NCBI GenBank assembly: GCA_018054125.1
Contig: JAGPKD010000007.1
Coordinates: forward strand, 1-33,532
Source of the DNA: Candidatus Oleihabitans oleiphilus
GTDB taxonomy: Bacteria > Atribacterota > Phoenicimicrobiia > Phoenicimicrobiales > Stramentimicrobiaceae
Length of the DNA: 33,532 bases
Direction of reading: 5' to 3'
The notes below the pieces were generated by a model. The model searched no databases. It saw only the letters and a list, made by a program, of their open reading frames with translations, and was not told where the DNA came from. Both the position numbers and the translations under genes were made by a program. Positions 2,171-28,327 of the stretch are shown one piece after another; the stretch's first letter is position 1, and each line of letters begins with the position of its first letter.

Positions 2171-2213
2171 ATATTCAAGGGGAATACTTCCCCTTGATAA
2201 CCCCTTTGAATAT
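2171..2213. repeat. Palindromic core repeat, copy A
   Basis: Core 2173-2205. Arms CAAGGGGAA (2176-2184) and TTCCCCTTG (2188-2196) pair perfectly around a 3-base loop, followed by a conserved AACCCCT. In this copy the flanks extend the structure: ATATTCAAGGGG (2171-2182) can instead pair with CCCCTTTGAATAT (2201-2213) with one bulge. It overlaps the possible upstream TTG start of plsC. With copy B it forms a pair whose starts are 159 bases apart. Confidence 0.85.
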
Positions 2214-2301
2214 GAATAAATTAATAAATTAATATTAAGCCATATTTCCTTAATCTACTTAATATCTTCTTATCTTTCATTTCTTATCTAAGTATTTTTA
2301 A

Positions 2302-2364
2302 GAATATTGTAATTTCTTATGAAATTCCAATATTCAAGGGGAATCCCTCCCCTTGAAAACCCCT
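2302..2364. repeat. Palindromic core repeat, copy B, with its leading hairpin
   Basis: Core 2332-2364 matches the other copies except for a slightly changed loop (GGGGAATCCCTCCCC). It is directly preceded by a hairpin at 2302-2335: GAATATTG pairs with CAATATTC, and inside it AATTTC pairs with GAAATT around TTAT. Copies D and F have the same arrangement but different stem letters. It lies 48 bases downstream of the tRNA 3' end on the minus strand. It is not followed by a T-run, so a simple terminator role is not supported. Confidence 0.85.
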
Positions 2365-20123: not shown

Positions 20124-20220
20124 ATGCCCACTCTCCTTTAAATATATTTTTTAGATTTTTTTTATCGAATTTTTTTAAATTCTAATACTATAAATTAATA
20201 ATAAATCATAAAACCAGATT

Positions 20221-20249
20221 AGTATAACATACTTGTAATTGTTATTCAA
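20221..20249 (-). promoter_or_regulatory. Sigma-70-type promoter for rpsB
   Basis: On the minus strand -35 TTGAAT (20249-20244), a 17-base spacer, and -10 TATACT (20226-20221). Transcription would begin near 20214, leaving a leader of about 90 bases, long enough for autoregulation by S2, which is known for rpsB leaders in other bacteria. Confidence 0.72.
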
Positions 20250-20269
20250 TACAGACAATTAGTAAAATT

Positions 20270-20352
20270 AAAGATATTCAAGAGATTAATAAATAGGGAA
20301 TTTATTGTTAATTCAGGTACTATCTAAAGAAAGAATCCCCTTGAATATCTTT
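20270..20352. repeat. 13-bp perfect inverted repeat, rearranged relative of the palindromic core
   Basis: AAAGATATTCAAG (20270-20282) and CTTGAATATCTTT (20340-20352) are perfect complements 57 bases apart. The right arm reads, on the minus strand, ATATTCAAGGGGATTC, the first half of the core repeat found at six other sites. An inner pair AATAAAT/ATTTATT could form a second hairpin. It lies 35 bases downstream of the hslU stop and just upstream of the rpsB promoter, and might also serve as a terminator for hslU. Confidence 0.6.
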
Positions 20353-26191: not shown

Positions 26192-27523
26192 TCAACTTTT
26201 TTCATAATGAAATACAATAGGAATGCCTTCCAATTCAAAATTTCTAATAAATTCATTTTCAAGATATCTTTGGTAAGAATTATATAAAAGATCAGGTTCA
26301 TTTACAAATATTTTAAAAGAAGGTGGTTTTGTTCCTGTTTGAGTAATATAGTAAAATCGAAGCCTTCTCCCCTTTATAATATTGGGTGGCTTATTATTTA
26401 CTATTATTTGCAGCAAATTATTTAATTCTGAAGTAGTTATTTTTTTATTAAATCTATTAAATACTTCGATGATTGTTTTTATAATGTGAGAGCTATTTTT
26501 TTTAGGACCTACCGCTATAGTTGTTAGGAGGGGCGCACCCTTAAGAAATTTCAAATTATATTTACTTATTTGTAGTAAAGAAGCCTTGTCGATATCTTTG
26601 TTTTTAGCTACCAAATCATATTTATTCAGTAAAACAATGACTGCTTTCTTTTCTTCCCTGATTTTTTTTGCCAATCGTTTATCCTGCATGCTAATCGCAT
26701 TGCTGGCATCTAAGACCAGTAAAACTACATCTGCTTTCTTAATAGAGGCTATGGTTCGTAAATTTCCAAAATATTCAATTTTATTTTTTACACTTTTTCT
26801 CCTTCTAAGACCAGCAGTATCCACAAATTCTAACTTATATTTTTCGAAATTAATCGATGCGTCAATAGCATCCCTGGTGGTACCTGGCTGTTTATCGACA
26901 ATAGCTCTTTCTTCATTTAAAAGAGCATTTAATATACTAGATTTGCCTACATTTGGTTTACCAATAATGGCTACTCTTATTAGATAGTTAAGATCATTTT
27001 CAGAAGCAAATTTCTCCTTATTATTATAAGGAATTAATTCTATTATTCTGTCTAATAGTCCATTAATATTTATACCCTGTTCGGCTGAAATAAGACACGG
27101 TTCACCCAAACCTAAATGATAAAAATCACCAAGAAAGTAATGCTTATCTTTTATATCATTCTTATTGATTACTAAAATAGATTTTTTTTTATTTTTACGA
27201 ATAAATTTTGCTAGGTCAGTATCTTCCTGCTGGATACCAGTCATTACATCAACGAGGTGAATTATTAGGTCAGCTTCCATAATTGCTTTTTTTACTTGCT
27301 CAAAAACACTCTTTTGCACCAAATCTTGTTTATTGGTATAATCAATACCGCCAGTGTCAATCAAAGTAAATTCTCTACCCTGCCAGTTCAAATCAGCATA
27401 ATTACGGTCACGAGTAATCCCGGCTTCTGATAAGACAATTGCTTTTCTAAATCCTAGTAAGCGGTTAAATAAGGTAGATTTACCAGTATTTGTTTTTCCA
27501 ATAAGGGCAACTTTATTTTTCAT
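26192..27523 (-). CDS. der: Ribosome biogenesis GTPase Der (EngA)
   Basis: A 443-residue GTPase with two tandem G domains and a C-terminal KH-like domain; it acts in 50S assembly. P-loops are GKTNTGKS at 9-16 and GKPNVGKS at 188-195, with DTGG and DTAG G3 motifs, and NKND (120-123) and NKYD G4 motifs. The first P-loop has Thr-Asn-Thr where relatives often have Pro-Asn-Val. The ATG has no visible ribosome-binding site; instead a copy of the palindromic repeat ends 14 bases upstream. Confidence 0.97.
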   Translation of the reverse strand: MKNKVALIGKTNTGKSTLFNRLLGFRKAIVLSEAGITRDRNYADLNWQGREFTLIDTGGIDYTNKQDLVQKSVFEQVKKAIMEADLIIHLVDVMTGIQQEDTDLAKFIRKNKKKSILVINKNDIKDKHYFLGDFYHLGLGEPCLISAEQGININGLLDRIIELIPYNNKEKFASENDLNYLIRVAIIGKPNVGKSSILNALLNEERAIVDKQPGTTRDAIDASINFEKYKLEFVDTAGLRRRKSVKNKIEYFGNLRTIASIKKADVVLLVLDASNAISMQDKRLAKKIREEKKAVIVLLNKYDLVAKNKDIDKASLLQISKYNLKFLKGAPLLTTIAVGPKKNSSHIIKTIIEVFNRFNKKITTSELNNLLQIIVNNKPPNIIKGRRLRFYYITQTGTKPPSFKIFVNEPDLLYNSYQRYLENEFIRNFELEGIPIVFHYEKS

Positions 27524-27536
27524 ATAACATAATATT

Positions 27537-27569
27537 ATTCAAGGGGAATCCTTCCCCTTGATAACCCCT
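27537..27569. repeat. Palindromic core repeat, copy C
   Basis: Full 33-base core: ATT, arm CAAGGGGAA, loop TCC, arm TTCCCCTTG, then ATAACCCCT. It lies only 14 bases before the der start codon. It begins the C-D pair, whose cores start 152 bases apart. Confidence 0.88.
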
Positions 27570-27659
27570 GAAATACATAATATCAAACTCAATATATATT
27601 ATTTTCTTCATTATTTTATTTATTAGTTTATCCTTCACGTTTTATCTTTGTATATTTAA

Positions 27660-27721
27660 GAATAATGAAATTTCCCAGAAATTTCATTATTCAAGGGGAA
27701 TTCTTCCCCTTGATAACCCCT
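27660..27721. repeat. Palindromic core repeat, copy D, with its leading hairpin
   Basis: A perfect 14-bp leading hairpin spans 27660-27692 (GAATAATGAAATTT against AAATTTCATTATTC, loop CCCAG). It shares its last bases with the core at 27689-27721, which has the same GGGG-CCCC arms as the others. The spacer between C and D is repeated almost letter for letter between E and F. Confidence 0.88.
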
Positions 27722-27818
27722 TTATTTCCATCTCAATCTAATCATTATTATTAAGCAAAGAGAATATATATCTTTTAATATCTTGTCTTTTAATATTTTT
27801 TATAACAAATCAATTCCT

Positions 27819-27895
27819 TATCTTGAGGTATCGGAATTATTGAAAATTCTCTACCTCAAGATATTCAAGGGGAATTCTTCCCCTTGACAACCCCT
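27819..27895. repeat. Palindromic core repeat, copy E, with a different leading hairpin
   Basis: The leading stem is TATCTTGAGGTA (27819-27830) against TACCTCAAGATA (27852-27863), a perfect 12 bp with an inner GAATT/AATTC pair. This sequence is unrelated to the stems of D and F, yet is in the same position directly before the core (27863-27895). Confidence 0.88.
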
Positions 27896-27973
27896 GAAAT
27901 GCATAATATCAAACTCAATATATATTATTTTCTTAATTATTTTATCCTTCAAGATTATTCTTTGTATATTTAA

Positions 27974-28035
27974 GAATAATGAAACTTCCTAGTAATTTCA
28001 TTATTCAAGGGGAATCCTTCCCCTTGAGAACCCCT
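27974..28035. repeat. Palindromic core repeat, copy F, with its leading hairpin
   Basis: The leading stem GAATAATGAAA (27974-27984) pairs with TTTCATTATTC (27996-28006) around an 11-base loop. The core is 28003-28035. E and F start 140 bases apart. The spacer 27896-27973 is a near-copy of the one between C and D, shortened by about a dozen bases. Confidence 0.88.
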
Positions 28036-28205
28036 GAAATAATCTATTATCTTATAATTATTAACTATTATAATGTTTTGAAAAAATTCTATCCATTCTC
28101 CTGCTTCTTGCCTATCTCTTTGTAAGAAAATTTAGACAAGGTTGAAGAAATCAATTTCAGTCCTTACCCTGAGAAGAAAGAAGGGAATTGTGGTTACGTA
28201 GACTC

Positions 28206-28307
28206 CCACGTCTTTACAGACGTGGCACTCACTTTTACAGACTAATGTCTGTCCCGATTTGTCGGGAACTTGCTCTCATCCCCACCTTTACAGGCGGGGA
28301 GTTCCCG
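28206..28307. other. Cluster of four GC-rich hairpins, probable structured RNA or mobile-element end
   Basis: Four perfect or near-perfect hairpins lie in 102 bases: CCACGTCT/AGACGTGG with loop TTAC (28206-28225), ACAGAC/GTCTGT with loop TAAT (28237-28252), CCCGA/TCGGG with loop TTTG (28253-28266), and a nested stem with CGGGAACT/AGTTCCCG outside and CCCC-A-CCT/AGG-C-GGGG inside with loop TTAC (28263-28307). The third and fourth share bases, so only one can form at a time. TTTACAG recurs three times. The block is much more GC-rich than its surroundings. It starts 21 bases past the rpe stop. GC-rich subterminal hairpins are known in IS200/IS605-type elements, but no transposase or TnpB gene is seen. 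Confidence 0.7.
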
Positions 28308-28327
28308 CTAGATTAAATGCATTGCTA

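Follow-up and report, generated by a model that had tools for sequence, protein, structure and literature searches.

The window, i.e. the whole stretch of 33,532 nucleotides that was analysed, comes from a draft genome of 1.67 Mb in 181 contigs, further referred to as G000. It was searched for the 31-base core CAAGGGGAANNNTTCCCCTTG allowing up to 3 mismatches. Exactly six matches (A to F) were found, each with 0–1 mismatch; the chance expectation is 0.02, and none of 100 shuffles reached six. The sequence-only reading that preceded this analysis had listed six almost identical cores at these positions with start distances of 159, 152 and 140 bases, and both the cores and the distances proved correct. 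The features are as follows.

2174..2204, plus strand: core A, TTCAAGGGGAATACTTCCCCTTGATAACCCC, the 5' hairpin of a unit (pattern search)
2205..2301, plus strand: x-type AT-rich body from core A to the leading hairpin of B
2302..2335, plus strand: leading x-type hairpin GAATATTGTAATTTC-TTAT-GAAATTCCAATATTC, which overlaps the start of core B (covariation, folding)
2333..2363, plus strand: core B, with no 3' hairpin after it (pattern search)
about 20190-20352, minus strand: eroded seventh copy, the relic of one unit, AAGATA/TTCAAGGGGATTCTTTC...CCTGAATTAACA...TAGTATTAGAATTTAAAAAAATTCGATA, sense to the genes here
26192-27523, minus strand: EngA/Der GTPase gene
27538..27568, plus strand: core C, 14 bp upstream of the EngA/Der start codon and antisense to the gene
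27569..27659, plus strand: x-type body between C and D (sequence comparison)
27660..27692, plus strand: leading x-type hairpin of D, GAATAATGAAATTTC-CCA-GAAATTTCATTATTC (covariation, folding)
27690..27720, plus strand: core D (pattern search)
27721..27818, plus strand: y-type body between D and E, recurring at other loci, e.g. L040, L024 and L052
27819..27863, plus strand: y-type 3' hairpin TATCTTGAGGTA...TACCTCAAGATA, closing in a target-like CAAGATA (folding)
27864..27894, plus strand: core E (pattern search)
27895..27973, plus strand: x'-type body between E and F; the first 84 bp from core E are 95% identical to C–D
27974..28006, plus strand: leading x-type hairpin of F (comparison, folding)
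28004..28034, plus strand: core F, the last core of the array (pattern search)

The cores had been described as three pairs, A–B, C–D and E–F. The spacings stand but the pairing does not, as C, D, E and F form a single array in which three spacers (x, y and x') separate the four cores. The flank 3' of core B runs into a tRNA-Arg. The eroded copy at 20190-20352 indicates that old copies decay. No terminator was found in the window array, and promoter-like sites numbered 7 against 4.9 expected.

Another repeat, 120 bp long (GTAGACTCCCACGTCTTTACAGACGTGG...CCCCACCTTTACAGGCGGGGA), occupies window positions 28198-28317. It is 100% identical to G000:C74, and its copies in other genera are about 85–90% identical. 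Several related matches directly adjoin Y1 transposase genes or their fragments. Judging by these matches, the repeat may be an end of an IS200-type element or a derivative of one.

The repeat family and the anatomy of its units

Searching the source genome and its relatives for the core, as had been suggested from the sequence alone, revealed a large family. With the 31-base core and up to 3 mismatches, 204 copies were found in G000 and 177 in a genome of the same genus (G001), while the reversed-pattern control gave 0 copies. Nine further genomes of the same order hold 1–22 core copies each. Outside the order, 77 genomes were searched (26 from the same phylum and 51 from other phyla), and none has the core; viral contigs contain no exact core match. 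Among the matches listed for the genomes searched, the family thus appears restricted to Atribacterota. A second, related 5' hairpin (TCAGGGG...CCCCTGAAACCCCT) is present in 131 copies in G000 and 161 in G001; both core types have body types in common.

The repeats encode no protein, in agreement with the sequence-only reading. Only 3 of 114 cores lie inside ORFs, and no recurring gene family was found beside cores. Some cores (L024 around position 1500, L054 and L040) touch or enter reading frames, and the reverse strand of such cores reads LSRGRIPLEY-like peptides in one frame; by their sequence, these cores may extend proteins. Extra repeat modules (GTCATTGCGAGGAGCGAAGCGACGAAGCAATCTC, CCCTCACC...CTCTCCCTTCTAAGGGAGAGG) are located beside or inside the arrays at L068, L079, L163, L177 and many other loci, so that the intergenic regions are mosaics of several repeat families.

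A unit has a 5' core hairpin, then the sequence NAACCCC and an exchangeable AT-rich body, of which several types exist. Most unit types also have a 3' hairpin, closed by TATCTTG...CAAGATA or a variant of it; its sequence is unlike that of the core hairpin. In 324 unique cores the 5' foot is (GA)TA-TTC and the 3' foot NAACCCC. Tandem cores have the same direction, and unit lengths mostly fall into discrete classes of 76–88, 123–159 and 162–175 bp, with a few longer units. The y spacer between D and E is itself a recurring unit type found at other loci. The x-type hairpin nearly always directly precedes a core; since its closing GAA pairs with the TTC of the core, the two form a double hairpin. 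Arrays of the x type end in a core without a 3' hairpin.

This anatomy changes the repeated unit proposed earlier, core-spacer-core. The clearest insertion (locus L195, see below) has one terminal core, with a hairpin at the opposite end. The paired arrangement does recur elsewhere in the genome, but as tandem units, in arrays having several cores. A CRISPR array was considered and ruled out: instead of unique spacers of near-constant length, the cores are separated by recurrent body types of variable length that are common to several loci.

A second hairpin was confirmed before all four of the cores B, D, E and F. However, the hairpin before E (TATCTTGAGGTA...) belongs to another subfamily than those before B, D and F, and therefore gives no evidence of compensation with them. 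Nor does every leading stem have a perfect complement, as had been claimed, the stems before B and F being imperfect. Compensatory change is nevertheless found genome-wide. This analysis used an alignment of 30 distinct x-type double hairpins, taken from two genomes, in which the pairs of the named structure were counted. Both sides have changed in 5 of the 15 pairs of the leading stem. Compensatory cells numbered 29 compared to 10.1 ± 2.2 in shuffles, with none of 500 shuffles reaching 29. The shuffles leave relatedness in place; versions with the structure slid along the alignment keep it too, yet give at most 13 compensatory cells. Of the leading-stem cells 91% are paired, against at most 58% when slid. 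The core stem is almost invariant and so uninformative on covariation. As single-stranded DNA, the double hairpins fold far better than shuffles (z from −5.4 to −8.0). The leading stem thus covaries, and selection on a folded nucleic acid, proposed in the sequence-only reading, is supported by covariation together with folding; the data are compatible with DNA or RNA.

Filled sites, empty sites and the target

Orthologous loci of G000 and G001 are about 96% identical, and filled and empty sites can be compared between them. At L195, a 127-bp unit is present in G000 and absent from G001, where the site lacks any unit and reads GTTAATAAGATA/ATCTATT (the slash marks the junction). The filled site reads GTTAACAAGATA[TTAAAGGGG...CGATACTGTAAGATA]ATCTATT, with the unit in brackets. 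The gap between the flanking matches is 130–174 bp shorter also in G002, G004 and G006, as judged by gap lengths and not by base-by-base reading, so the L195 unit is most simply a gain. At two other loci, a 79-bp and a 138-bp unit were added beside CAAGATA, next to existing units of another type. The reverse direction is seen at L060, where G001 has two units (about 206 bp) and G000 none. These sites show that units were inserted recently, beside CAAGATA.

In the window array, the gene-gene gap is about 810 bp compared to 46–125 bp in five relatives; the orthologous flanks of other genera are too diverged for unit ends to be placed there. Units of the x type, which make up most of the window arrays, appear old, and the comparison of G000 with G001 gave no clean x-type polymorphism at any new site.

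Several differences between G000 and G001 (L017, L171 and L181) concern how many identical units stand in tandem. Such tandem-copy gains could also be recombination, and they are what would be expected if arrays of old repeats grew only by replication slippage or unequal recombination, with no present transposition. As an account of the whole family this is extremely improbable: the L195 insertion is at a site that has no unit in the relative, that at L060 is where G000 has no units, and two of the array gains are of another unit type than their neighbour.

The 114 cores with a left flank that occurs once in the sampled sequence give the consensus (C)AAGATA before the core. In the largest class, A, A, T and A occupy positions −5, −3, −2 and −1 in 48 of 49 cases, and G occupies −4 in 41 of 49. 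The x-class target is looser than this.

Comparison of orthologs for a target duplication, also suggested earlier, gave a divided answer. At L195, the empty site has a single AAGATA, and in the filled site the unit lies between two copies of it; a few loci have the same unusual copy on both sides (CAAGGTA/CAAGGTA, CAATATA/CAATATA, CAAGATG/CAAGATG). Both observations fit a classical MITE moved by a DDE transposase that duplicates a 6–7 bp target (AAGATA). At many other loci, contrary to duplication, the left and right copies are unlike, e.g. CAAGATA on the left and TAAAATA on the right. A single motif is used throughout, which also argues against a MITE of this kind, and the units have no terminal inverted repeats: the left end TTCAAGGGG and the right end ...CAAGATA are not inverted copies of each other, the right end being an unrelated AT hairpin. 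We therefore regard such a MITE as unlikely. As for which of the two copies is the original, the downstream CAAGATA of L195 matches the empty site at the sole informative base, whereas at L060, opposite to L195, the upstream flank fits better.

In our opinion the repeats are probably copies and tandem arrays of very short, non-autonomous, target-specific mosaic mobile elements of Atribacterota, moved in trans. An enzyme acting in trans would insert units, each made of a conserved 5' hairpin (TTCAAGGGGAATNCTTCCCCTTGA followed by NAACCCC), an exchangeable AT-rich body and usually the 3' hairpin TATCTTG...CAAGATA, beside (C)AAGATA; it would presumably recognize a folded single strand. Many units end in CAAGATA, so each can supply a target for the next; insertion at this unit-terminal site would produce the tandem arrays.

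Orientation and gene context

Between co-directional genes, 51 regions have antisense units and 6 have sense units (p = 6e-10), with gene positions taken from a simple ORF caller. The units often lie just upstream of the start codon, the median distance to it being 82 bp. The target motif AAGATA upstream of genes has the opposite bias, with 66 sense occurrences and 29 antisense. A first, smaller test of local skew in divergent gene regions gave 11:1 and suggested replication-linked orientation. This was dropped, as a larger test on long contigs gave 8:8 relative to GC skew in such regions. The orientation bias thus follows the genes and not the replication fork. The antisense bias may stem from insertion or from selection.

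Dependence of the orientation on genes rather than on the fork, the strong antisense placement at a median of 82 bp from the start codon and the compensatory change in the leading stem are all consistent with elements selected at the RNA level. In that case the hairpins would function within the 5' untranslated region of the gene that follows, and their mobility would be secondary or past. However, hundreds of near-identical copies adjoin unrelated genes, recent gains occurred at sites that are empty in relatives, and the Rfam search of the window gave no match except one tRNA. The compensation could be explained equally well by single-stranded DNA required in transposition. Selection at the RNA level is therefore rather unlikely as the main explanation.

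The antisense bias would be explained if TATCTTG of the end hairpin, being complementary to CAAGATA, served as a guide that chooses the insertion site, and if the transposase acted on whichever strand transcription exposes. Upstream of genes, units would then enter the sense strand. Such a family would consist of guide-dependent single-strand elements, coupled to transcription and not to replication. We consider this improbable.

Candidate movers and relation to known repeats

If the units are mobile elements moved in trans, as we prefer, their likeliest mover is an HUH (Y1-type) single-strand transposase. This choice is tentative and is made by analogy with IS200/IS605 (PMC6006769), given the hairpin ends, the lack of inverted repeats and the fixed target. 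Many Y1 transposases exist in the order, but cores flank none of the about 30 Y1 loci that were sampled. No Y1 gene was found in G000; this is uninformative, since the assembly has a gap at the orthologous RAYT locus. The IS200 of G001 (L202, L203) has hairpins CCCTGTGGCTTGCCACAGGG and inserts after AACTTG, and its ends are unlike those of the units. Nor do the ends of this IS200 differ from each other in sequence, as the two hairpins of a unit do. Neither G000 nor G001 has a Y2 transposase, TnpB is nearly absent, and nothing of this kind is linked to cores. No autonomous copy was found. Candidates for a long autonomous copy, with the 3' hairpin at a large distance from a core, were for the most part the same palindromes on the opposite strand. 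The RAYT genes of the order (L204 2078-3007 and other loci) sit between inverted GGGGACGGTCCTTTGTCA-type palindromes, a REPtron-like arrangement in Atribacterota.

The sequence-only reading had offered a MITE- or REP-like element mobilised in trans. Likeness to such elements is borne out by hundreds of non-coding copies, presence/absence polymorphism, one target motif and the lack of an own gene. Membership in either family is not: there is no GTAG or CGTC tag, there are no terminal inverted repeats, and none of the Y1 transposases sampled lies beside a copy. REP/BIME repeats (PMC3733652, PMC6006769) are likewise short, intergenic, palindromic, present in hundreds of copies and clustered in mosaics, and a Y1 HUH enzyme presumably moves them in trans (PMC3733652, PMC6006769). 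The abundance and clustering of our palindromic intergenic repeats, as well as the RAYT-like Y1 genes of the order, would thus fit REP/BIME members moved by a RAYT (TnpA_REP). However, REPs are defined by GTAG or CGTC tags (PMC3733652), and neither is found at the hairpin foot in 324 unique cores. The units are mostly 77–175 bp long, contain two unlike hairpins, have the defined target CAAGATA and are antisense to co-directional genes; their arrays are tandem head-to-tail and not inverted REP pairs (REPIN). Sampling of about 30 Y1 loci revealed no cognate RAYT. Where RAYT flanks are readable, they mostly hold another palindrome (GGGGACGGTTCT type) in inverted pairs, and the RAYT was rejected as the mover on this ground. 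G000 has no detected Y1 gene, though its orthologous RAYT locus is in an assembly gap. Membership in the REP/BIME family is therefore very unlikely.

By architecture alone, BOX of Streptococcus pneumoniae (boxA-boxB(n)-boxC; PMC3049150) is the nearest in style, being composite and modular, with a variable number of tandem modules, stem-loops, mostly non-coding sequence and a parasite-like nature (PMC3049150). BOX has been linked to an IS through similarity of terminal inverted repeats (PMC3049150). In contrast, the units described here have neither inverted repeats nor such an IS, and each carries a conserved 5' hairpin of its own.

IS200/IS605 elements and their non-autonomous derivatives (PMC6006769) share with the units the end hairpins, the lack of inverted repeats, insertion beside a short fixed target with whose sequence the element itself also ends, and a guide-like complementary stretch within an end hairpin (PMC6006769). 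The differences are that here the end hairpins are unlike each other, the 5' hairpin starts 2–3 bases from the junction, the target has about 7 nt and not 4, neither TnpA nor TnpB is attached, and orientation follows genes, not replication.

ERIC and RU of enterobacteria (PMC2759123) are of similar length (103–168 bp), intergenic, mobile and without an own transposase. They are described as similar to miniature inverted-repeat elements (PMC2759123), whereas the units here are double-hairpin mosaics with a target heptamer.

A literature search, carried out mostly outside subscription journals, found no report of such repeats in Atribacterota. The best reading is that the repeats form a new lineage within a known type of small genomic parasite, REP- and BOX-like in style, but not members of those families. 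They add a recently mobile mosaic palindromic repeat family in a deep, uncultured phylum. The many-contig assemblies of these genomes may be due in part to the hundreds of hairpin repeats. The filled and empty sites between near-identical genomes provide a usable system for finding the mover of such repeats, a question that is also open for CGTC-tagged REPs. The same sites can be used to ask why the units sit almost only antisense to co-directional genes.
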